A DNA stretch of 64,000 nucleotides from Halosolutus halophilus (lineage in GTDB: Archaea; Halobacteriota; Halobacteria; Halobacteriales; Natrialbaceae), in assembly GCF_022869805.1 (NCBI RefSeq), contig NZ_CP094974.1, positions 744,001-808,000 of the forward strand, read 5' to 3'. Of this stretch, positions 20,895 through 38,674 are shown one piece after another. A program made the position numbers and the translations under genes. Under the pieces are notes generated by a model. It had not been told where the DNA came from and did not search any database. It saw only the letters and a list, made by a program, of their open reading frames with translations. Numbering within the stretch: the stretch's first letter is position 1; every line of letters begins with the position of its first letter.

Positions 20895-21179
20895 ATGACG
20901 TTCGTCGAGAACCTGACGCTATTCGTGCTGGCTGCCTTCGTCGGCTACGAAATAATCACGAAGATCCCGACCAATCTGCACACGCCGCTAATGTCCGGGG
21001 CGAACGCCATCTCGGGGATTACGCTGCTGGGATCGGTCGTAGTTGCCGGATCGGGGTCGACGACGATAGCGACGGTCCTCGGCTTTCTGGCGGTCGTCAT
21101 GGCGACGATCAACGTCATCGGCGGTTATCTGGTGAGTCACTTCATGCTCGACCAGTTCAGTCACGGAGGACGTAATTGA
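20895..21179 (+). CDS. NAD(P) transhydrogenase alpha subunit 2, membrane part
   Basis: 94 residues with three membrane segments. EIITKIPTNLHTPLMSGANAISGI is the conserved entry of PntA domain II when encoded as a separate polypeptide. The stop overlaps the start of pntB by four bases (ATGA). It forms the proton channel together with PntB. Confidence 0.93.
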   Translation: MTFVENLTLFVLAAFVGYEIITKIPTNLHTPLMSGANAISGITLLGSVVVAGSGSTTIATVLGFLAVVMATINVIGGYLVSHFMLDQFSHGGRN

Positions 21180-22624
21180 TGACGGGTATTATCGGCGGGC
21201 TGCCGGACTCGATCCTTCAGTTCACGTATCTCGTCGCCGGCGTCCTGTTCATTCAGGGGCTCCGGGATATGACCCACCCGCGGACGGCGACGCGCGGGAA
21301 CAAAATCTCCTCCGGAGGGATGTTCCTCGCGGTGGTCGTCACTATCCTCTGGTTCGAGGTTCTCTCCCCGCTGGTTCTGGGTGCCGGGCTGCTCGTCGGC
21401 GGAGCGATCGGCGTCTGGCTGGCCGTCACCGTCGAGACGACGGAGATGCCGCAGTTGGTTGGGCTGTTCAACGGGTTCGGCGGCGGCGCGTCCGCGCTGG
21501 TCGCAGGTGCGGAACTGATCGACGTGATGGGATCCGGTAACTCACTCTCCGTGGGGTTAGCCTCGACGGCCGCAATCGCCGGCATTATCGGGGCTGTCAC
21601 GTTCTGGGGTAGCCTCGTCGCCGCCGGGAAGCTCCACGGGGTAGTCGGGGATTCGCCGGTCAGCGAGACCGTCGGCCACGGTATCAAGATCCTCTTCTTA
21701 TCGGCGGCCGTAGTGGCTGGCTTGTTCCTGATCGTCCGTCCGGATATTTTCGGGTCGGCACCGCTAGCCGCGTGGATACCCTCCTACTGGGTGCTAGTCG
21801 CGGCCGCGTCCATTCTCGGTATCTTCCTCGTCGTACCGATCGGCGGCGCGGATATGCCCGTGGTCATCGCCTTGCTTAACTCCTACTCCGGATTGGCGGC
21901 AGCGACGACGGGGTTCGTGCTGAACAACACTGTCCTTATTATCGCTGGAACGCTCGTCGGTGCGTCTGGTCTCATCCTGACGGTTATCATGTGCGAGTCG
22001 ATGAACCGCTCGCTGACGAACGTCCTATTCGGCGGCCTCGGCATCGGTGACAGAGACAGCGAGGATATGGAGGATATCTACGAAGGGAAAATAACCGAAT
22101 CTTCCGCCGAGGAGATTGTGATGCTCATGGAAACGGCCCAGCGCGTCGTCATCGTTCCCGGGTACGGAATGGCTGTCGCCCAGGCGCAGCACGCCGTCGC
22201 CGAACTCGTCGAACTCCTCGACGAGAACGGTGTCGACGTCGAGTTCGGAATCCATCCCGTCGCCGGTCGGATGCCCGGCCACATGAATGCGCTGCTGGCC
22301 GAAGCCGACGTGCCCTACGACAAGATGCGCGAACTCGAGGAGGTCAACCCAACCTTCTCACAAACTGACCTCGTGATCGTCACGGGTGCGAACGACGTTG
22401 TCAACCCGAAGGCAAACACCGACGACTCTAGTCCCATCAGCGGCATGCCCGTGCTGAATGTTGCAGAAGCACAATCAGTGGCGGTCAACAAGCGAAGTCT
22501 CAGTCCGGGATTTTCCGGGATTCCGAACCCGCTGTTTGCGAAGGACAATACGAGCATGCTCTTTGGCGACGCCAAAGAATCGATGCAGGAACTGGTCAAC
22601 CAATACAAAGACGCAACTTCATAA
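21176..22624 (+). CDS. pntB: NAD(P) transhydrogenase beta subunit
   Basis: 482 residues. The N-terminal half has about eight membrane segments (domain II), including LFNGFGGGASALVAG and LLNSYSGLAAATTGFVLNN. The C-terminal domain III binds NADP through VIVPGYGMAVAQAQHAV and PVAGRMPGHMNALLAEADVPYD, and ends with GANDVVNP and DAKESMQELV. All family motifs are intact. It is the third gene of the pnt operon, translationally coupled to the second. Confidence 0.95.
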   Translation: MMTGIIGGLPDSILQFTYLVAGVLFIQGLRDMTHPRTATRGNKISSGGMFLAVVVTILWFEVLSPLVLGAGLLVGGAIGVWLAVTVETTEMPQLVGLFNGFGGGASALVAGAELIDVMGSGNSLSVGLASTAAIAGIIGAVTFWGSLVAAGKLHGVVGDSPVSETVGHGIKILFLSAAVVAGLFLIVRPDIFGSAPLAAWIPSYWVLVAAASILGIFLVVPIGGADMPVVIALLNSYSGLAAATTGFVLNNTVLIIAGTLVGASGLILTVIMCESMNRSLTNVLFGGLGIGDRDSEDMEDIYEGKITESSAEEIVMLMETAQRVVIVPGYGMAVAQAQHAVAELVELLDENGVDVEFGIHPVAGRMPGHMNALLAEADVPYDKMRELEEVNPTFSQTDLVIVTGANDVVNPKANTDDSSPISGMPVLNVAEAQSVAVNKRSLSPGFSGIPNPLFAKDNTSMLFGDAKESMQELVNQYKDATS

Positions 22625-22915
22625 GCTAACCTGAATATTCTGGAGAGAGAGAGAGAGAGTACTATCATCGTCTCTTGTATAGACGGTCCAGTCACCGGTT
22701 TCGTCGGCCCACGCGTCGTTGAGAACCACGCTATCGATACTCGCAAGGCCACCGTCGGTTTCTGAGACGGCCTTGAGTTCGTTCGAAGACCCGGTAGACG
22801 AACTCCGCATTCTGCTCGACGACAAGGTGGATCGTGTGTGGGACGTCTTCGCCGTCTTCGACGGTAATCCGACCGAGTTTCGATTCCGGCTCAGAAAATG
22901 CGTTTGTGGGGGTTG
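22619..22915 (-). pseudogene. relic of a haloarchaeal secreted/lipoprotein-type protein
   Basis: On the minus strand from about 22915 the reading KLGRITVEDGEDVPHTIHL VVEQNAEFVYR is followed, one frame over, by SNELKAVSETDGGLASIDSV and DETGDWTVYTRDDD. This is the pattern of a small beta-rich domain common in haloarchaeal secreted proteins. A frameshift and the loss of the start make it a relic. Its end abuts the stop of pntB. Confidence 0.5.
22643..22659. repeat. GA dinucleotide microsatellite
   Basis: About nine consecutive GA units directly after pntB, inside the end of the decayed minus-strand gene. Such simple repeats are uncommon in haloarchaea and prone to slippage. Confidence 0.8.
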
Positions 22916-23979: not shown

Positions 23980-24400
23980 ATCGACATCAACCAGACGATC
24001 GTCGATACGATCACCGATGGCCGCGCGCCGAACGACGAACCCGACCCCGGCGACCTCCTGGGCGCGCACGCCGGCGAACGACTCACGTCAGCGAATCGTC
24101 CGCGGCCTCGAACGCGCCGCCGAGCACCAACTCACCGGCATCTATAACCTCGGGACGGGCGACGCCGACAGCGTCACCGAACTCGTCGCGATGCTCAATG
24201 CGGAACTGGGGATCGAGATCAAGCCGGAGTACGTCGCGAACCCGATCCCCGAGGACGTCTACGTCCACGACACCTGCGCCGATACGTCGGCGTTCGAAGC
24301 CGCGACCGGGTGGGCGCCCGCGATCGACGTCGAGGAGGGCCTGCGGCGCGTCTGTGCACAGTACACGGACGGTACAGCGGAGACGTCGTCCTCCCAGTAA
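23980..24400 (+). pseudogene. chimeric relic: UDP-glucose dehydrogenase fragment joined to epimerase C-terminus
   Basis: Bases 23980-24095 read QTIVDTITDGRAPNDEPD then a short LLGAHAGERL, which corresponds to residues about 30-65 of UDP-glucose/GDP-mannose dehydrogenases (family consensus INDGRAPIHEPGLDDLL). From about 24098, in another frame, follows VRGLERAAEHQLTGIYNLGTG ... YVHDTCADTSAFEAATGWAP, the C-terminal third of an NAD-dependent nucleotide-sugar epimerase, to the stop at 24400. The middle of both genes is missing. The epimerase tail and its downstream flank recur at 62.5 kb and partly at 34.5 kb. Confidence 0.72.
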
Positions 24401-24546
24401 TCCGAGCAGCGCACGTTCGCCGGACTGCTTTGCGTGGGCACGTGCTGCGGCTCTCAGCCGGTGAATTCAGCCTCGAAATGGAGGGCGATCCATGGCGGCC
24501 CAGAAAACGACACCACGGGCTCCGTTGAAAGCTCATTCTTCAGGTG
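24228..24546 (+). repeat. repeat copy A: epimerase tail plus conserved 3' flank
   Basis: About 320 bases nearly identical to 62467-62797, and for the central 110 bases to 34463-34575. It runs from the epimerase tail through the stop, a shared non-coding segment (taatccgagcagcgcacgtt and onward), and ends at an IS5-like terminus (cgttgaaagctcat). Conservation continues past the stop codon, so the unit was copied as DNA rather than kept by selection on the protein. Confidence 0.75.
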
Positions 24547-25205: not shown

Positions 25206-26120
25206 TCCCGAGCGTTGGGATATTACGGGTTGCAGTCCACCTCGTCTCGCTGCGGTTGGAATCCGCAGTCGAGGACTGACAAATAGCGTCCGAACGTCGA
25301 CCGTCCTGCCGACCGACGATGCGGACGGGGAGATCGAGTAACGTGATCGATCCGCTGGTCGGCGCGTCTCACCGACGCCGTCGACGGAGAGGATTTCAGC
25401 AGGCAGTAGCTGCTGCCGGAGGTTGCCAATCTCTCCGAGTTCATTCGTCAGATGGCGCGCTGGGGATGAACACGCCTGAGGCGATCGACGACGAGGTGCC
25501 CGCCGACCCGCGCGGTCCTGACGTGAGCTGAGCGAAGGCTCGCCGACCCGAGAGGTCCGATTCAACCTGCGCCGATCAGAGAGCCCGCGGGTGGTTCTCC
25601 GCGGGCTTTCGCCCAGAGAGCGACGCGTCGGCGTCTCGGTCATTTCTCGGGTACCGCCCGTTCGAACTCAGACGAGAAGCAGACGAATGCGAGTACAACC
25701 AGTATGCCACCGAGGCGATTTATCGGGGTATGGTTCGGTCACGCGAAGTACACCCATCTATATGATGAGTTGACAGGTATGCGACAATTGTGTGGCGATA
25801 TTGGAGACCCGGCGTCTGTTCTGTCTCAGTCGTGACAGGCGAGTCTTCTCTCGCTGTTTTGCGAGATGCATTTCGGCTAAAATCTGTTCACCACGTTCGT
25901 GTGACTGTTGACTCGGCGGGTCGCGTCGCCTGTCAGTGGTATGGAATGTCTGATCAGAGGTAGTCGCATGGCCCACTGTCACGTCTCGTTCGGAGCCACG
26001 CGAATTAACTATAATAATTAATAAATGTTATCCAAAGTAGTTTGGAACAGTATTTACCTCCATACCGTTCTATTATTCAGAATTAAAATCCTCATTTCTT
26101 ATTTCTCTACACAATTTCGG
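25206..26120. other. intergenic region without an intact gene
   Basis: About 915 bases. The first 500 are GC-rich and may include IS200/IS605 debris next to the hairpin at 25179-25205; a strong small hairpin (agcccgcgggtggttctccg then cgggct, about 25581-25608) resembles a transcription terminator. The last 250 are AT-rich and lead to the promoter of the multicopper oxidase. Confidence 0.4.
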
Positions 26121-26131
26121 AAGATATATGG
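26121..26131 (+). promoter_or_regulatory. TATA-like box for the multicopper oxidase
   Basis: aagatatatgg lies about 30 bases before the ATG at 26157, the spacing expected for a leaderless archaeal transcript. It favours 26157 over the in-frame upstream codon at 26136. Confidence 0.5.
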
Positions 26132-26156
26132 CTGATTGTTCAATTACGTCACCTCT

Positions 26157-29100
26157 ATGGTTGATAACGAGAACAACCAAGGTGGGAAAGGGCTTCAGTC
26201 GAAACGCCGGACGTTCATTCAGGGACTCGGCATGGTGCCGATGTCGGGCTTTTTGACGAACGACGTCAGCGCTACGCAGGCCGGAGACGTCAGCACCGAA
26301 AGCGACGGCACCGTTCGAACGTATACCGTCCACGCGATCGAGGTCGATATCGTCTACAACAGGTTCGATCTGCACCAGCCAAATGGTGCGATGTACGTCC
26401 TTGAGGAGAACCTCGAGGAAGCCAGAGAAGCGTCCGGGAAGACCCCCGACGACGGGTTCGCGATGATCGACGAGGGTGGATCCAGCAGCTCCGCCGCGGG
26501 CGCCATCGAGCCGCTGGTGATCCGCGCGAACAGGGGTGACACGGTCGAGATCGAGTTCCACAACCATCTCGACGAACCCGCCTCGATGCACCAGACCGGG
26601 CTGCCCTACGACGTGCAGACGTCCGATGGGATGTCGGTCGGCTACAACGCGGATACGACGGCCGCCCCGGGCGAGACGATCACGTACACGTGGGAAGCAG
26701 CCAATATCGGCACCCACTTCTTCTACGACGGCGCCAACCAGGCGCTCGACAGCGGACCCGGCAGTATCGATCAGGTGAACCTCCTGTCGCGGGGGCTGTT
26801 CGGCGCGATCGTCGTCGAACCGCCGGGGGCGACCTGGACTGACCCAGAGACGGGCGAAGAACTCCGCAGCGGCGTCCGAGCGGACATCCACGACCCCAAC
26901 GCTCTGGAGACGAGTTACCGCGAGTTCGTCGTCTTCTACCACTCGCCGTCGGGCTTGAAACACGACGTCTACTGGCCGCACAGTGACAAGACACAGCACC
27001 CGCACGCGATCAACTACCGGTCCGATCCCAGCGGGCAACGAGTCAACGACAGCTGTCCCGACTGCAACACCGAGAAGACGTTCTATCACTCCTGGACCCA
27101 CGGCGATCCGGGAGGCGGTGACAACATCTACGACGTCTACAAGGGCGACCCCGTCAAGTTCTGCTTCGTCGGGGCGTCCCAGGAGGAAAACCACGTCCAC
27201 CACATCCACAACAGCCGCTGGAAGCAGGTGCCGCGAACGGACGCCGACACGATCGACGCCCAGACGATCGGACTCGGCGACGCCTTCCAGTCGTACTTCG
27301 TTGCGGGCCACGGCCCGGGGTCGGTCCGGCCCGACATGACGTTCGAGGAGGCGTTCGAGAACGGTGGCGGCGGCTATATGCACGAGGGTGCGGGAGACGT
27401 TCTCTTCCACTGTCATATGTTCCCCCACTACGCCGAGGGGATGTGGGGATCGATGCGAGTCCACGACAAGGAGCGGGACTTCCTTGAGCCCCTGCCCAAT
27501 TCCAGCGAACTCATTTCGGCGGGCTCGGACACGCCCGGGTACCCGGAGTTCATCGGTGATGCGATCGAGAAGGTGAACGGCGTCGACGATCCGAAGGGCT
27601 ACATCGCCCCCGAACCGCCGCTGCAGTCGGTCGACGATCCGCGACAGCCGACAGGGGCCGAACGAAAAGCCCTCGGCGATGACATCGAGCCCGGCGCCCC
27701 CTATGCGGGCCCGGTTCCCGACGGTGAAACGCCGAACCGGGTCATCGAGTACACCATCGTCGCCATGCCGGCCCAGGTCGCGTACAACGACGCGGGCGAA
27801 CACGACCCCGACGGGATCGTCTACGTCCTGGAGGAGGCGAACGTCCCCGGCGTGACCGACGGCACCGTGACGGTCAACAATGCGGAACAGGTCCGGAACG
27901 GTGAGCTCAACCCCGAACCACTCTTCCTGCGGGCCAACGTTGGCGACCTGATCAAGGTCAGGCTGAAGAACGAAGTCGACGGTGCCGGGGCCTCGATTCA
28001 TCCGCACTTCGTCGGCTTCGACGTGCTCGGGTCGGACTCGCTCGCCAACGGCTACAACTACTACCAGGGAACCGACCACGGCGAAACGAACGAGTACCGG
28101 TGGTACGCCGACGAGCGGGGAACGATCTACTTCCACGACCACATCATCGCGCTGAAGGAAGGTCAACACGGCATGTTCAACGCCCTGCTGGTCGAACCGG
28201 AGGGCTCGGAGTGGGTCGATCCCTACTCGGGCGAACCGGCGTTCAGCGGCGCCCAGGCGAACATCATCACGCCTGACGACTCCGACGAGAACGACTTCCG
28301 CGAGCAGGCGCTCTTCCTCCACGACTTCGTCCCCCTGCGGAACCGCGACGGCGAACTCATCACCCAGAACACACAGCACAACGTCAACGCCGGGACGATG
28401 GCGGTCAACCTCCGGAACGCGCCCTACTACAACCGCGACGGCGAGGATCCCGCCTACGTCCACAGCTCGAAGGCCCACGGCGATCCGCCGACACCAGTGC
28501 TGGAGGCCTACGAGGGCGATCCGATCAAGTTCCGCGTCCTCCAGGGCGCCTACGAGGAGATGCACAACTTCGCCATCCACGGCCTCCGGATGGACCCGGA
28601 AGGGTTCGCCCCGGACGACTACGTCTCCCACGTGATCGGCCCCTCGGAGGCGTTCACCTTCGACGTCGCGCCGGAGGCCACGCAGAACGCCTTCGACAAG
28701 ACGACCAACCCGGACGGCGTGCCGGTACGGGACTACCGGTACGGGTCGAACGTTATCGACGATCTGTGGTCCGGCCTGTGGGGACTCGTCCGAATCTGGG
28801 GCGGGTCCGTCAATCACCTGGAGTGTCTGCCGGACCACGGTTCGCCGGCGCTCGCGATCACCGACGACCAGCTCGCGGAGATGGGCCACCCCTCGCAGTT
28901 CTCGGACTTCGACTGGACCGAAGAGGGCCAGTGGGCCAAGCACTACTACCATCCAGACGACACCGACCGGAAGACCCCACCGGACAAGAACGCGCGCCAG
29001 AACCCGAACGTGGGTGAGACGCCGCCCCAGGCACCCGGTGACGTCGAGAGCCTGACGAGTCGACTGGACCTCCCGGAGGGTAAGGTGCGGGAGTTCGATG

Positions 29101-30728
29101 TCACGGCCATCGAGACGGAGATTCCCTACAACGACTACGGCGACCACGATCCGAAGGGCGTCGTCTTCGTCCACGATCGGTACGCGGACGAGGTTCGCAA
29201 CGGCGACCGCGACCCGCAGCCGCTGACGCTGCACGCCAACGAAGACGAACTCGTCAGGGTGAACCTCACCAACGACCTCCCATGGGACCTGAACAACGAC
29301 GACGAGCACCCGCTGACGCGCGTGCACAAGGACCACTCGTGGAAGCGGTCCCATCGGATCTCGTTGCACCCGAACCAGGTTCGGTACGACACCAACACCT
29401 CCGACGGCTCCGCGGTCGGCTTCAACTACGACACGACCGTCGGCCGCGACGAGACGGTCACTTACGAGTGGTACGCCGACGGTGACCTTGGGACGGTCCT
29501 GTTGACCGACGCGGCGGACGTCCGGAGCAACCGCCACCACGGCGCCTTCGGCCAGTTGATCGTGAAGGAGGAAGGCGCGATCGCACTCGACGCCGTGACT
29601 GCAGAGCCCACGCCAGACGCGTTCACGAACATCGTCAGGACCCGGGGAGACGAAGAGGACTACCGCCAGACCTCGTTGCTGTTCGCCGACGGGCAGTTCA
29701 TCTTGAACCGTCACAACCCGGACCAGCCGATCGTGCCGGCCGGCGAGGAAGACGATCCGAACGATCCGCCGAACCAGCTCGGCGAGGAGCCCCAGGATCA
29801 CGGCTTCGGCGCGGTCAACTACCGCTCGGAGCCGTTCCGGTACCGCTTCGAGGGCGACGAGGCCCAGAACAAGGTGTTCAGCTCCGACGTCCATGGCGAC
29901 CCGAACACGCCGATCCTCGAGGCGTTCGCGGACGACCCCACGCGCTTCCGGATCGGCTGCGTCGCGGACAAGGGGCGGACGGTCACGTTCCACCTCGCGG
30001 GTCACCAGTGGCAGCGCTATCAGGGCGTCGACGAGTCGCCGATCACCGGCGTCGACGCGGACCTGAGCCCCGGCAAGTCCGAGACGTTCGACCTCCTCGG
30101 CGGAACCTCCGACCACCCGGGCGACTACCTCTACGCCGACGCCAAGCAATACCGCAAGCTGGAGTCGGGGATGTGGGGGATGGTTCGCGTCACTGACGGC
30201 AACGACAACGACGCGGCCGATCCGCAACCGCTCCCGGATCGGTCCGACGACGTGCCGCTCCGGGACCGACCCGGGTACGCCGTCGTCGAGGGATACGTCA
30301 CCGCCAACGCCGAACTGGACACCGTCGTCGGCGTCTCGGCCAGCGCCATCGGCGCCGTCGGCGCCGGCGGCGTCTACCTGTTCACCGACACGACCGCCGA
30401 CCAAGTCACCGACCTCTCGAACGCCGACGTCCAGCTCCTCAACCAGTACGTCCACGAGGGAGCAGGAGCCGACATCTCGCTGGTCAACGAGTCGACCCTG
30501 GCGGTATCCGACCTCGTCGTCCACACCGAGACCGACATCAACATCGTTCTCGAGGGCACTGTCCTGGCGGACCTCCTCGAGCAGGAACCCGACTCAAAGC
30601 TCGCTGCGTTCGTCCGATCGACGACCAATTCTCGAGCAAACAGGATCGCGCCGTTGAGCGGCATCGGGAACCGGACCACGAAGACCCTAGAGAAAATCGT
30701 TGACGATCTAGGCGGCAACCTGCTGTAA
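26157..30728 (+). CDS. giant multicopper oxidase-like cupredoxin protein
   Basis: About 1523 residues, three times a laccase. A Tat-type signal (KRRTFIQGLG) starts near residue 17. Three homologous repeats of about 450 residues follow, starting near residues 45, 535 and 970; each opens with a Y-N motif such as VHAIEVDIVYN, IVAMPAQVAYND or VTAIETEIPYND. The four HxH copper motifs are split between repeats. Repeat 1 has HVHHIH (from His346) and HCHMFPHYAEGM (His418-Cys419-His420). Repeat 2 has HPH (615-617) and HDH (660-662). Equivalent positions in the other repeats are degenerate. One blue-copper and trinuclear centre could form between repeats 1 and 2, as in ceruloplasmin- and MnxG-like enzymes. 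It probably acts outside the cell; the substrate is unknown. It stands alone. Confidence 0.85.
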   Translation: MVDNENNQGGKGLQSKRRTFIQGLGMVPMSGFLTNDVSATQAGDVSTESDGTVRTYTVHAIEVDIVYNRFDLHQPNGAMYVLEENLEEAREASGKTPDDGFAMIDEGGSSSSAAGAIEPLVIRANRGDTVEIEFHNHLDEPASMHQTGLPYDVQTSDGMSVGYNADTTAAPGETITYTWEAANIGTHFFYDGANQALDSGPGSIDQVNLLSRGLFGAIVVEPPGATWTDPETGEELRSGVRADIHDPNALETSYREFVVFYHSPSGLKHDVYWPHSDKTQHPHAINYRSDPSGQRVNDSCPDCNTEKTFYHSWTHGDPGGGDNIYDVYKGDPVKFCFVGASQEENHVHHIHNSRWKQVPRTDADTIDAQTIGLGDAFQSYFVAGHGPGSVRPDMTFEEAFENGGGGYMHEGAGDVLFHCHMFPHYAEGMWGSMRVHDKERDFLEPLPNSSELISAGSDTPGYPEFIGDAIEKVNGVDDPKGYIAPEPPLQSVDDPRQPTGAERKALGDDIEPGAPYAGPVPDGETPNRVIEYTIVAMPAQVAYNDAGEHDPDGIVYVLEEANVPGVTDGTVTVNNAEQVRNGELNPEPLFLRANVGDLIKVRLKNEVDGAGASIHPHFVGFDVLGSDSLANGYNYYQGTDHGETNEYRWYADERGTIYFHDHIIALKEGQHGMFNALLVEPEGSEWVDPYSGEPAFSGAQANIITPDDSDENDFREQALFLHDFVPLRNRDGELITQNTQHNVNAGTMAVNLRNAPYYNRDGEDPAYVHSSKAHGDPPTPVLEAYEGDPIKFRVLQGAYEEMHNFAIHGLRMDPEGFAPDDYVSHVIGPSEAFTFDVAPEATQNAFDKTTNPDGVPVRDYRYGSNVIDDLWSGLWGLVRIWGGSVNHLECLPDHGSPALAITDDQLAEMGHPSQFSDFDWTEEGQWAKHYYHPDDTDRKTPPDKNARQNPNVGETPPQAPGDVESLTSRLDLPEGKVREFDVTAIETEIPYNDYGDHDPKGVVFVHDRYADEVRNGDRDPQPLTLHANEDELVRVNLTNDLPWDLNNDDEHPLTRVHKDHSWKRSHRISLHPNQVRYDTNTSDGSAVGFNYDTTVGRDETVTYEWYADGDLGTVLLTDAADVRSNRHHGAFGQLIVKEEGAIALDAVTAEPTPDAFTNIVRTRGDEEDYRQTSLLFADGQFILNRHNPDQPIVPAGEEDDPNDPPNQLGEEPQDHGFGAVNYRSEPFRYRFEGDEAQNKVFSSDVHGDPNTPILEAFADDPTRFRIGCVADKGRTVTFHLAGHQWQRYQGVDESPITGVDADLSPGKSETFDLLGGTSDHPGDYLYADAKQYRKLESGMWGMVRVTDGNDNDAADPQPLPDRSDDVPLRDRPGYAVVEGYVTANAELDTVVGVSASAIGAVGAGGVYLFTDTTADQVTDLSNADVQLLNQYVHEGAGADISLVNESTLAVSDLVVHTETDINIVLEGTVLADLLEQEPDSKLAAFVRSTTNSRANRIAPLSGIGNRTTKTLEKIVDDLGGNLL

Positions 30729-31009: not shown

Positions 31010-33292
31010 ATGAACGATCGAGCGGATGCCACGGAAACAGCGTTTTGGCCGGACGACGCTGGCGATTCCGTGGCACTCCAACGCTACCGAACGCTCGTCA
31101 ATACGGTCGACGACGGTATCTACCAGCTCGATGCCGCTGGACGGTTCGTCGCGGTCAACGATATTATCGTCGAACTGACCGGGTACGCGCGGGACGAACT
31201 CATCGGCGAACACGCCTCGATCGTGCTTGCGGACGACGATGTCGAGCGAATCACGCTCGAAATTGCCCAGAGTGTGGCGAACGATGAGCAGTTGACCGAC
31301 TGCTTCGAGATCACAGCGCACACTGCCGCCGGCGAGACTCGATATTGCGAACTGCGAGCGAGTCTGCTCGTCGAAGATGGTACGTTTCAGGGATCGGTTG
31401 GGATCGTGCGTGACATCACCGATAGAAAACGAACGGAAGAGACACTCGACGAACGCGAGCGGCAACTCGAGCGCGAGCGTGATCTGATTGATCGAATTCT
31501 CGAGACCAGTCCCGTCGGCATTCAGGTATTCGACGCCGACGGGGAGGTCACCCGTATGAACGAGCGGGTCAGGGACATTCTCGAGATTCCCGAGGAAGAA
31601 GCGGAGATATACGATCCGTCACAGCGGCCGGTCTACGACGAGGATGGCCGCGAAGTTCCGGCCACCGAACATCCATTCGCTCGAACCCTCGAGACCGGTG
31701 AACCAGTTTACGAGGACGTCCTCCAGATTGACCTCCCGAGCGGCGACTCGCGTTGGCTCTCGGTCAACGCGGCACCCCTCTTCGACGACGCCGGCGACAT
31801 CGATCGCGTCGTTACGACTGGTGAGGACATCACCGACCTCAAAGAACGGGAACGAGACCTTGAGACCGAACTGAACGAGATTTTCGGTCGGATCTCTGAT
31901 GCTTTCTACGCACTCGACGAGGAGTTTCGATTCACCCACGTCAATGACCGGGCCGCGGAACTCCTGCAACACGACGAGGAAGAGTTGCTCGGCAAGAACC
32001 TCTGGGAGACCTTCCCCTCCGCCGCGGAAATCGACGAGGTCTGGGAGGCATTCCACACGGCACGCGAAACACAGGAGGCGACCAGTTACGAACTTTACTA
32101 CGATCTGCTCGGGATCTGGGTCGAAGCGAACCTCTATCCGTCCGAAACTGGCGTCTCGGTCTATTTCCGGGATGTAACCGAGCGTAAGGAGCGTGAGCGT
32201 GCCCTCGAGGAATCCGAGCGGCGGTACCGCACGCTCGTGGAGTACTTCCCAAACGGACTCGTAACCCTGTTTGATCACGACCTCGAGTACACGCTGGCGG
32301 CCGGGCAGGGATTCGACCGCATCCCCGTCGAACCCAACGATCTCGAGGGGAAGCAGTTCCACGATGTCTGGCCGGACGAGACCGCCGCCGGCTTGAGGCC
32401 CGTGTTCCAGGCCGCACTCGACGGCGAGGAGGCGTCGGTCGAACTCGAATACGCTGATCGAGAGTGGGTGGTCCACGCGGCCCCGATCACCGACGAGCGT
32501 GGCGAGGTCTTCGCCGGCATGACGATGGCCCAGGACATCACCGAACGCCGTGAGTATCAGCGGAAACTCGAAGAGACGATCGAGCGCCTCGAAGATTCGA
32601 ACGAACGACTCGAACACTTCGCGTACGCCGCCTCACACGACCTGCAAGAACCGTTGCGGATGGTGTCGAGTTATCTGCAATTGATCGAGGACAGATACGG
32701 CGACGCACTCGACGAGGACGGGAAAGAGTTTCTGGCGTTCGCCATCGAGGGCGCGGAGCGGATGCGAAAGATGATCGAGGGCCTCCTCGAGTACTCGCGG
32801 GTCGAAACGCAGGGCGATCCATTCGAACCAACCGACCTCGAAGATGTCGTCGGAGACGTCCTCACGGATCTCCAGTTTCGGATCGAGGAAAGTGCTGCCG
32901 ACGTCTCGATCGACGAGCTCCCTCGTGTGAATGGTGACGCCAGCCAGTTACGACAACTGTTCCAAAACCTCCTGTCGAACGCGATCGAATACAGCGGTGA
33001 CGAACCGCCGACAATCCACGTCGAGGCGGAGAACCAGGGCGGAACGTGGATCATCTCGGTCCACGACGAGGGGATCGGGATCGAGGCTGATGACACGGAA
33101 CGCGTGTTCGAGGTCTTCCAGCGACTCCACAGCCGCGAGGAGTACGATGGGACTGGGATCGGACTGGCACTCTGTCAACGAATCGTCGAACGCCACGGCG
33201 GCGAGATCTGGGTCGAGTCCGAACCGGACGAGGGAACGACGGTGTCGTTTACGCTGCCAGCCGGACCATGGTCCGGGAACTGCTCTGAGTGA
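31010..33292 (+). CDS. multi-PAS sensor histidine kinase
   Basis: 760 residues, no membrane segment, so cytoplasmic. Four PAS domains lie at about residues 25-140, 155-275, 285-395 and 405-520, each ending in a DxTxRK- or DITER-type motif. The HisKA domain has the phosphoacceptor His543 in ASHDLQEPLRM. HATPase_c follows with the N-box LFQNLLSNAIEYSG, G1 DEGIGIEAD and G2 GTGIGLALC. This is a common haloarchaeal bacteriophytochrome/bat-like kinase layout. A receiver-only protein is encoded nearby at 33590-34048 on the other strand and may be its partner. The signal is unknown. Its kinase core is very similar to that of the protein at 36821-38674. Confidence 0.92.
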   Translation: MNDRADATETAFWPDDAGDSVALQRYRTLVNTVDDGIYQLDAAGRFVAVNDIIVELTGYARDELIGEHASIVLADDDVERITLEIAQSVANDEQLTDCFEITAHTAAGETRYCELRASLLVEDGTFQGSVGIVRDITDRKRTEETLDERERQLERERDLIDRILETSPVGIQVFDADGEVTRMNERVRDILEIPEEEAEIYDPSQRPVYDEDGREVPATEHPFARTLETGEPVYEDVLQIDLPSGDSRWLSVNAAPLFDDAGDIDRVVTTGEDITDLKERERDLETELNEIFGRISDAFYALDEEFRFTHVNDRAAELLQHDEEELLGKNLWETFPSAAEIDEVWEAFHTARETQEATSYELYYDLLGIWVEANLYPSETGVSVYFRDVTERKERERALEESERRYRTLVEYFPNGLVTLFDHDLEYTLAAGQGFDRIPVEPNDLEGKQFHDVWPDETAAGLRPVFQAALDGEEASVELEYADREWVVHAAPITDERGEVFAGMTMAQDITERREYQRKLEETIERLEDSNERLEHFAYAASHDLQEPLRMVSSYLQLIEDRYGDALDEDGKEFLAFAIEGAERMRKMIEGLLEYSRVETQGDPFEPTDLEDVVGDVLTDLQFRIEESAADVSIDELPRVNGDASQLRQLFQNLLSNAIEYSGDEPPTIHVEAENQGGTWIISVHDEGIGIEADDTERVFEVFQRLHSREEYDGTGIGLALCQRIVERHGGEIWVESEPDEGTTVSFTLPAGPWSGNCSE

Positions 33293-33589: not shown

Positions 33590-34048
33590 TTATGTCTCCT
33601 TCGGAGGCAGATGAACGAGTTTGAGCCAGAACTCCACGATCGCGTCTACCAACTGATCGAACTCGTCCGCCGAATCCGGCTTTTGCACGTAGGCGTTCGC
33701 GTGGAGTTCATAAGATCGGGTGACCGCCGCTGGTTCGTCCGACGATGTCAAGACGAGCACAGGGATGAGTCGTAACTCGGGTCTGTCTTTGAGTTCGGTG
33801 AGGATCTCGATGCCACTCGATTCGGGAAGGTGGAGATCGAGAAGAATGAGATCCGGCGGGGGAGCCTCCGTATAATCGCCGTGCTGAGTGATGTAATCGA
33901 GTGCTTGGTTCCCGGTGGAGACGACGGTTACGTCGTTCGGAATCTCTGTCGCCTCAAACGAGTTGATAAAACGTGAGGCACTATGTGGCTCGGGTTCTAC
34001 GAGAAGGATATCATAGGTTCGATGTTGCTGTCGTGTGAATTCATCCAC
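33590..34048 (-). CDS. response regulator receiver domain protein
   Basis: 152 residues forming one CheY-like domain. DILLVEPEPHS holds the N-terminal acidic pocket, in which the usual second Asp is replaced by Glu. The phosphoacceptor is Asp71 in LILLDLHLPESSG. VLVLTSSDEP and YVQKPDSADEF give the conserved Thr/Ser and Lys. There is no output domain, as in many haloarchaeal receiver-only proteins. It lies between two PAS histidine kinases and could receive phosphate from either. Confidence 0.9.
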   Translation of the reverse strand: MDEFTRQQHRTYDILLVEPEPHSASRFINSFEATEIPNDVTVVSTGNQALDYITQHGDYTEAPPPDLILLDLHLPESSGIEILTELKDRPELRLIPVLVLTSSDEPAAVTRSYELHANAYVQKPDSADEFDQLVDAIVEFWLKLVHLPPKET

Positions 34049-34420: not shown

Positions 34421-34462
34421 GGCACACACGATTATGGAAGACCTGTTTCCTAATCTCCCGGC

Positions 34463-34575
34463 GATCGACTTCGAAGAAGGACTCCGACGCGTCTGTGCAC
34501 AGTACACTGACGGTACAGCGGAGACGTCGTCCGTCCAGTAATCCGAGCAGCGCACGTTCTCCGGACTGCTTTGCA
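34463..34575 (+). repeat. repeat copy B: epimerase tail plus 3' flank, short
   Basis: The segment encodes AIDFEEGLRRVCAQYTDGTA followed by the stop at 34539-34541 and 34 bases of the same non-coding flank (atccgagcagcgcacgttct). It matches the central part of the copies at 24228-24546 and 62467-62797. Nothing of the dehydrogenase part is present here. Confidence 0.75.
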
Positions 34576-36820: not shown

Positions 36821-38674
36821 TTACTCGTGATCGTGCGCTGCGGGGAGCGTCAACGAGAACGTCGATCCCTCGCCGGGTTCAGACTCGACCCCGATCTCGC
36901 CGCCGTGACGCTCGATAATCCGCTCGCACAGCGCCAAGCCAATACCCGACCCCTCGTGGTCGTCTCGGGAATGGAGTCGCTGGAACACCTCGAAGATCCG
37001 ATCTTGCGCATCTGGCTCGATCCCGATCCCCTCGTCTTGAACCGACACTTCCCACATTGAACTGTTCCGCTCGGCGGAAATCTGTACCCGTGGTGGCTCG
37101 TCACCGCTATACTCTATCGCGTTACTCAGTAAATTCTGAAACACTTGGTGCAACTGATTCTCATCTCCCAGCACACGGGGCAACTCATCAACCTCTACGT
37201 AGGCATCACTTTCGGTGAGACGCATCTCGAGGTTGGCCTGGACGTCTGCAACCACCTCGGTGAGGTCGACTGGTTCGAGTGGCTCCCCCTGCGTCTCCAC
37301 GCGTGAGTATGCCAGTAGTCCGTCGATCATATGACGCATACGGTCGGCGCCGTCGACGGCGAACTCGAGGAATTCTTCGGTCTCTGCAGTCAGCTCATCG
37401 TCGGCCCGGCTCTCGATCAACTGCAGATAACTCGAGACCATCCGGAGTGGCTCCTGAAGGTCGTGAGAGGCGGCATAGGCGAACTGCTCGAGCCGCTCAT
37501 TGGATTCCTCGAGCTTGAGCTCGTACGTCTTCCGGTCGGTAACGTCACGGGCCACGCCAACCATCCGCGTCGAGCCGTCGTTGTCTTCGACTGGGTGGCC
37601 TGGAGCTTCAATCCATCGTGTTTCGCCGTTCCGGACGATTCGGATCTCCTCGTGTTTCGGTTCGCCCGTCTCCAGGGATTTCTCGATGGTCTGCTGTACC
37701 TTCTGTCTGTCCTCTGGATGAATGATCTCGATGAAATCCTCCCAGTTCTCGACCGTTGTTCCATAGAGCGACTCCGCCGAGGGATAGAAGGAGGCTTCGT
37801 TGGCCTCTACGTTCCAGTCCCAGACGACCGCATCGGTTGCGTTGAGGGCGAATTCCATCCGCTCTCGGACGCGCTGTAGTTCCTGCTCATGCTCTTTGCG
37901 CTCCGTAATGTCCTGTGCCGCCCCACGGAGCGACACGACATCGTCGCCGACGATTTCAGGAACTCCTTGGATCCGAAGCCACCGCACCTCTCCCGCAGGC
38001 GTATGGAACCGTCCTTCCACATCGAAGGGCGCGCCTTCCTCAAGCGCCGCTTCGATGGCGTTCTCGATGATCGACCGGTCATCTTCGTGGTAGACATCGA
38101 GGACTTCATCCACTGACGGTTCTTCATCCCAAGACCGTCCCAGAATCTCAAAGAGGTGCTGAGTCCAGTACGCCTCCATCGTGTCCGGATCGATTTCCCA
38201 GCCACCGACGTTCGCGATACGCTCCGATTTGTGGAGGAGATCGACCGTCCGTTCGAGAACGAACGCGTTTGATTTGGCCCGTGCATCATTGACTCCCCCA
38301 GCAAACGAAGGGACGAGTACAAACGCCGAGATTATGAGAATTGCCCGTCCGGGACTGCTAATACTCGCGGCGGGTTGGAGGTGGTAGAGCGTGAGAAGAC
38401 CGGTCAACACCCCGATCCCACCGAGACACCAGCCCATGATTCTGGAATAGAATTTGGGATTGATTTCGGTTTCTGGCAATCGATACCCACCGTACAGGAC
38501 GATCATGCCCGGCCCGGCGACAAAGAACGAGATGACCATCACATTCGAGAGTGGCGTACCTCGTGAGATCTCTACATATGCCCACCCAAGTCCGAGGAGA
38601 ACGTAGAGCGCTCCCAAGGCGACAATTGCTCGCCTCCAGTAGGTGCCGAACCCGACCGTTTTCCAGGACTTCAT
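36821..38674 (-). CDS. membrane-anchored PAS sensor histidine kinase
   Basis: 617 residues. Four hydrophobic segments occupy the first 130 residues, so the sensor is membrane bound. Two PAS/PAC domains follow at about residues 145-270 and 280-395. HisKA has phosphoacceptor His404 in ASHDLQEPLRM. HATPase_c has LFQNLLSNAIEYSGDEPPRV, DEGIGIEPD and GSGIGLALC. From residue 390 on it is nearly the same as the kinase at 31010, which points to duplication of the kinase core with different sensor parts. The partner may be the receiver at 33590-34048. The signal is unknown. Confidence 0.92.
   Translation of the reverse strand: MKSWKTVGFGTYWRRAIVALGALYVLLGLGWAYVEISRGTPLSNVMVISFFVAGPGMIVLYGGYRLPETEINPKFYSRIMGWCLGGIGVLTGLLTLYHLQPAASISSPGRAILIISAFVLVPSFAGGVNDARAKSNAFVLERTVDLLHKSERIANVGGWEIDPDTMEAYWTQHLFEILGRSWDEEPSVDEVLDVYHEDDRSIIENAIEAALEEGAPFDVEGRFHTPAGEVRWLRIQGVPEIVGDDVVSLRGAAQDITERKEHEQELQRVRERMEFALNATDAVVWDWNVEANEASFYPSAESLYGTTVENWEDFIEIIHPEDRQKVQQTIEKSLETGEPKHEEIRIVRNGETRWIEAPGHPVEDNDGSTRMVGVARDVTDRKTYELKLEESNERLEQFAYAASHDLQEPLRMVSSYLQLIESRADDELTAETEEFLEFAVDGADRMRHMIDGLLAYSRVETQGEPLEPVDLTEVVADVQANLEMRLTESDAYVEVDELPRVLGDENQLHQVFQNLLSNAIEYSGDEPPRVQISAERNSSMWEVSVQDEGIGIEPDAQDRIFEVFQRLHSRDDHEGSGIGLALCERIIERHGGEIGVESEPGEGSTFSLTLPAAHDHE

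Follow-up and report, generated by a model that had tools for sequence, protein, structure and literature searches.

In Bacillus sp. PL-12, the genes mnxE, mnxF and mnxG are jointly required for activity, and the enzyme is a complex of MnxG with an E3F3 hexamer; of the multicopper oxidases (MCOs) characterised, MnxG alone is said to require accessory proteins (PMC5622069). A 2013 study of six-domain multicopper proteins assigned the trinuclear ligands to domains 2 and 3, both in algal Fox1-type proteins and in all of the bacterial six-domain MCOs analysed, with the mononuclear site of the bacterial proteins confined to domain 2 (PMC3600357). Two haloarchaeal proteins, Hlac_1576 of Halorubrum lacusprofundi (1525 aa) and Htur_3146 of Haloterrigena turkmenica (1476 aa), clustered with Bacillus and Clostridium MnxG in that study, and the proteobacterial large MCOs (Pseudomonas MnxG/McoA type and others, 1569-2681 aa), which have six domains and a domain 2/domain 3 trinuclear site like the oxidase described here, formed a separate cluster (PMC3600357). 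The literature that we found reported no function for Hlac_1576 or Htur_3146, and searches of it returned no haloarchaeal enzyme of Mn oxidation. To our knowledge, no archaeal Mn oxidase has been characterised so far.

We analysed a stretch of 64,000 nucleotides of the Halosolutus halophilus genome (NZ_CP094974.1, positions 744,001 to 808,000), hereafter called the window. The open reading frame (ORF) at 26157-30728 (+) is intact, and translation of 26157-30725 (+) gives 1523 aa. Its product is almost certainly a six-domain MCO of the MnxG-like family, probably exported, and appears to be another member beside Hlac_1576 and Htur_3146, which, likened by their published description, share its family, host group and size class. 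The gene is laid out as follows.

26157..30728 (+): gene of the MnxG-type six-domain multicopper oxidase, 1523 aa; alternative TTG start at 26136
26157..26291 (+): putative N-terminal export signal, recognised from sequence, with a Tat-type twin-arginine motif, KRRTFIQG (residues 16-23)
26316..26840 (+): domain 1, cupredoxin, about residues 54-228, without a complete copper site
26841..27491 (+): domain 2, about residues 229-445, predicted T1 copper and half of the trinuclear site
27192..27209 (+): motif HxH-3 in domain 2, H346 (T1), H349 and H351 (trinuclear)
27408..27443 (+): motif HCH-4 in domain 2, H418, C419 (T1), H420, H424 (T1), M429 (T1 axial)
27735..28256 (+): domain 3, about residues 527-700, other half of the predicted trinuclear site
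27999..28007 (+): motif HxH-1 in domain 3, H615 and H617
28134..28142 (+): motif HxH-2 in domain 3, H660 and H662
28257..28841 (+): domain 4, about residues 701-895, without the T1 Cys
29082..29651 (+): domain 5, about residues 976-1165, degenerate
29652..30206 (+): domain 6, about residues 1166-1350, degenerate
30246..30686 (+): C-terminal module, residues about 1364-1510, with a confidently predicted fold

Family membership and domain architecture

A phmmer search against solved structures returned MnxG of Bacillus sp. PL-12 (9bxa chain A) as the best match at E 2e-175, in four stretches covering the six-domain core; the next family was factor V, at 1.6e-11. Pfam recognised two generic Cu-oxidase families in the protein (Cu-oxidase_3 at 3.5e-23). 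The NCBIfam equivalog NF041487 (copper_ox_MnxG, a 1894-residue model) scored 157.6 bits, far under its cutoff of 3100 bits, and the window oxidase is therefore not of that narrower MnxG type. Identity to Priestia megaterium MnxG was 39% at aligned positions.

The six cupredoxin domains of the core form three homologous repeats of two domains each, as indicated by the sequence and by the fold matches of domains 1-4 and 5-6, and the core is collinear with MnxG of Bacillus sp. PL-12/Priestia megaterium (9bxa), which shares this organisation. An AlphaFold2 model of residues 48-900, made with 19 sequences and of moderate quality (mean pLDDT 61.5, pTM 0.55), had 9bxa_A as its best solved match (Z 31.5, rmsd 4.7 over 719 residues; next entry Z 22.1), with a TM of 0.70 in a structure search, and the predicted arrangement of domains 1-4 follows that of MnxG. 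For domains 5-6, the model of residues 960-1523 (mean pLDDT 66.9) matched many cupredoxin entries at about Z 12-14, with 9bxa merely tied among them. Since this fold match is unspecific, the assignment of that half to MnxG rests on sequence, the third repeat by itself matching MnxG at 1.2e-115 among solved structures.

Ceruloplasmin and factor V also have six cupredoxin domains and a related fold, and the two-domain unit of the Streptomyces two-domain laccase SLAC resembles one repeat of the window oxidase (Z about 19.8). Two-domain laccases such as SLAC are homotrimers of two-domain chains, whereas the window oxidase holds its three repeats in one chain. As originally predicted, its 1523 aa exceed the 1217-1227 aa of Bacillus MnxG (PMC3600357); compared with a Bacillus MnxG of about 1227 aa, it has longer linkers, a Tat signal and an extra C-terminal module. 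Twin Arg residues occupy the equivalent place in the aligned homologues L003, L004, L006 and L007, and Tat export of the window oxidase is likely from its motif. The C-terminal module (about residues 1364-1510) is separate and without counterpart in Bacillus-type MnxG, and its pLDDT was mostly about 85-95 in the model of residues 960-1523. Many members of the family have a C-terminal extension, a modestly new feature, and Pfam recognised an FG-GAP-like repeat there in several homologues; the Pfam search of the window oxidase's own C-terminus gave no match, FG-GAP included.

A 1483-aa antisense ORF, 26073-30524 (-), spans the whole oxidase gene, and the homologues have mirror ORFs too; it is most likely a mirror-ORF artefact of GC-rich codon use in a coding gene.

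Copper ligands and motif order

The original prediction placed motifs 3 and 4 ahead of motifs 1 and 2, and the translation reproduced its residue positions exactly: H346-V-H-H349-I-H351, H418-C419-H420-MFP-H424-YAEG-M429, H615-P-H617 and H660-D-H662. Given the MnxG and Pfam matches and the homologues that keep these residues, chance can be dismissed as their source. In the alignment with Priestia MnxG the motifs were collinear and all 12 ligands were paired with identical residues (window/Priestia), namely H346/H281, H349/H284, H351/H286, H418/H334, C419/C335, H420/H336, H424/H340 and M429/M345 in domain 2 and H615/H529, H617/H531, H660/H575 and H662/H577 in domain 3. By its title, entry 9bxa holds the H340A form of the complex, and its sequence has Ala at the H424-equivalent position, which confirms the alignment register. 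These ligands were invariant in all 27 haloarchaeal sequences aligned, the window's included, and the remaining intact haloarchaeal sequences, compared by motif blocks outside that count, also keep all 12. The surroundings of the T1 site differ: E343 and H348, invariant among the haloarchaea, replace K278 and F283 of the Bacillus-type MnxG of Priestia, a modestly new feature.

Domain 2 contains a CxxC motif (CPDC, residues 300-303; 27054-27065) that also occurs in Bacillus-type MnxG and in some haloarchaeal homologues and is missing from others.

According to the sequence alignment, the T1 position of domains 4 and 6 is not occupied by Cys, and HxH pairs are missing from domains 1 and 5; repeat 3 proved degenerate, as had been noted, with neither HxH pairs nor the HCH Cys in domains 5-6. 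T1 ligands (His, Cys, His, Met) occur only in domain 2, and a full set of trinuclear ligands was found only at the domain-2/domain-3 interface, the other interfaces being incomplete. Because ligands are absent from domains 1, 4, 5 and 6, we predict a single T1 copper, in domain 2, and a single trinuclear site, shared by domains 2 and 3. This agrees with the single catalytic centre that had been proposed between repeats 1 and 2 and with the MnxG-type layout proposed alongside it, which Bacillus-type MnxG shares in its T1 site restricted to domain 2, its domain 2/domain 3 trinuclear site, its 12 identical ligands and its order of motifs C/D before A/B.

The accompanying comparison with ceruloplasmin did not stand. 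In ceruloplasmin-type chordate proteins the trinuclear site lies between domains 1 and 6. Ceruloplasmin, by keeping that site, has the motif order 1-2 then 3-4, as in laccases, whereas the order in the window oxidase is 3-4 then 1-2; a ceruloplasmin-like site at domains 1/6 was ruled out because the HxH/HCH ligands are absent from both domains. Nor is the order a novelty, since the same domain 2/domain 3 layout was published in 2013 with haloarchaeal members in the data set (PMC3600357). In the PCR primers for Bacillus mnxG, region D (HCHL) likewise comes first and region B (HQQH) second (PMC3039467). With three equivalent interdomain sites of which a different one is kept, the order 3-4-1-2 is the MnxG family's own, and what had been called permuted is the standard, already published arrangement in six-domain oxidases of the MnxG type and in algal ferroxidases. 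The order therefore adds nothing to the importance of the gene, whose interest lies in the apparent absence of MnxE/MnxF and in the candidate Mn(II) activity.

Accessory subunits and gene neighbourhood

The Priestia gene run is mnxE (95 aa), mnxF (107 aa) and mnxG, and its MnxE and MnxF match the MnxE and MnxF chains of 9bxa at E 2.7e-27 and 1.8e-17, respectively. With these Priestia proteins as queries, eight oxidase-carrying haloarchaeal genomes, the window's included, gave background only, with nothing below E 0.1, and neither protein was found beside 22 haloarchaeal oxidase loci; in searches with such short proteins, very diverged versions could be missed. Thus, whereas mnxE and mnxF are adjacent in the Bacillus Mnx system, neither lies in the operon of the window oxidase or was found in the eight genomes. 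The lack of recognisable MnxE/MnxF in genomes and flanks suggests that the haloarchaeal oxidase works alone or with unrecognised partners. An archaeal MnxG-type oxidase that apparently dispenses with the MnxE/MnxF needed by the bacterial enzyme would be modestly new.

When the neighbours at the 22 loci were clustered, no conserved operon partner recurred widely next to the oxidase, mirror ORFs aside. A PAS histidine-kinase relative was present at eight of these loci, and each genome has dozens of this kinase type. The window oxidase is adjoined by PAS-domain histidine kinases and a response regulator (31010-33292, +; 33590-34048, -; 36821-38674, -); PAS kinases are very numerous in this genome, so that a regulatory link to the oxidase is no more than a possibility. 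CHRD-domain relatives lie within 8 kb of the oxidase gene at 4 of the 22 loci (L044, L041, L042 and L034), about 300 bases downstream of it at L044 and not adjacent at the others, and a CHRD-domain exported protein or relative is also within 8 kb of the gene at L046. A functional link of these proteins to the oxidase is possible.

A 117-bp direct repeat, with copies at 24317-24433 and 34458-34574 that are 91% identical, flanks the oxidase and the adjacent two-component genes. Its copies resemble the final part of a sugar-nucleotide epimerase gene (sequence EEGLRRVCAQYTDGTAETSS; identified by eye), and the genome has further copies near 689 kb and 806 kb. Rearrangement or insertion may have shaped the oxidase locus. 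Positions 21000-22645 of the window, which hold most of an NAD(P) transhydrogenase beta-subunit gene (pntB), have a second copy at 487 kb on the same chromosome, 96% identical over 1.65 kb.

Proposed mechanism and distribution in haloarchaea

Established MCO chemistry, together with the ligand conservation, leads us to infer that substrate electrons would enter at the T1 copper of domain 2 (H346, C419, H424 and axial M429) and move through the His-Cys-His bridge (H418-C419-H420) to trinuclear copper at the domain 2/domain 3 interface. This site would be held by H349, H351, H418 and H420 from domain 2 and by H615, H617, H660 and H662 from domain 3, and O2 would be reduced to water there, with domains 1 and 4-6 as scaffold. 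The window protein very probably has oxidase activity. A metal ion would be oxidised outside the cell without MnxE/MnxF subunits, with Mn(II) as the best guess; as the main substrate, Mn(II) is plausible by homology, an even prospect in our estimation, and the missing MnxE/MnxF mean that substrate and assembly may differ from those of MnxG. The reading as a whole, that is, a Tat-exported MnxG-like oxidase with one T1 and one domain 2/domain 3 site that acts on an extracellular metal, Mn(II) at best guess, without MnxE/MnxF, is at most somewhat favoured.

An enzyme of the same architecture might have a different main job, either Fe(II)/Cu(I) detoxification in the manner of Fox1 and ceruloplasmin or laccase-like oxidation of organic or phenolic compounds, and we give this possibility real weight without thinking it probable. 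Copper ligands do not reveal the substrate of an MCO, MnxG-like proteins and algal ferroxidases have the domain 2/domain 3 site in common, the characterised MnxG is distant (39% identity to that of Priestia) with MnxE/MnxF absent here, and a remote Rubrobacter homologue is located near CopC/CopD and metal transporters; in both sequence and fold, MnxG is nevertheless by far the closest characterised relative. Coagulation factors V and VIII are non-catalytic relatives of ceruloplasmin, and a degenerate or structural role for the window protein would find parallels in its repeat 3 and in a Pseudonocardia plasmid homologue (L049) from which both the HCH motif and HxH-2 have disappeared. Such a role is very improbable, given that all T1 and trinuclear ligands are intact in the window oxidase and in every full-length haloarchaeal homologue examined. 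It is scarcely credible that motifs 3/4 came to precede 1/2 through circular permutation or fusion of a laccase-type gene: although the order 3-4-1-2 would fit such an event, it is explained by which of three equivalent interfaces retains ligands, and collinearity with MnxG extends over the entire protein and its three homologous repeats, with no homology breakpoints seen inside the gene, so that this origin was ruled out.

Within the preferred MnxG-like reading, the proposal of a stand-alone Mn(II) oxidase that haloarchaea export, an MnxG without the MnxE3F3 hexamer and perhaps aided by the C-terminal module and longer linkers, is tentative and on balance doubtful. If true, the enzyme would be the first characterised archaeal Mn oxidase, and MnxEF would not be intrinsic to MnxG chemistry. 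Were it active on Mn(II), enzymatic Mn oxidation would be known from brine archaea too, and the role of MnxE/MnxF could be tested with an MnxG-type enzyme that consists of one chain and lacks accessory subunits.

Homologues at about 30 other haloarchaeal loci share 46-66% identity with the window oxidase and keep all of the ligands. The gene was present in 12 of the 125 genomes of the window's family, in 24 of 391 sampled in its class and in five of 393 sampled in its phylum, all five in the window's own order. Among named genomes, a scan yielded 21 loci, all haloarchaeal, with two copies each in two species; members in Halorientalis marina, Haladaptatus pallidirubidus and Halalkalicoccus jeotgali are plasmid-borne. 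This patchy but wide and sometimes plasmid-borne occurrence in haloarchaea is modestly new. The sampled haloarchaeal sequences formed one clade in our tree (100/100), in which branches cross host families, suggesting gene transfer of the oxidase among haloarchaeal families; the order of archaeal versus bacterial lineages is unsure in the tree, which has long branches there.

The Pseudonocardia homologue, on plasmid pBCI1-2 of an ant-associated strain (L049 5842-9756), is probably no longer an oxidase, to judge by its missing HCH motif and HxH-2. In Natronococcus jeotgali DSM 18795 (L043 7470-10349 and the downstream ORF), the gene is split in domain 4 into two frames of 960 and 703 aa, reflecting either a pseudogene or a sequencing error.
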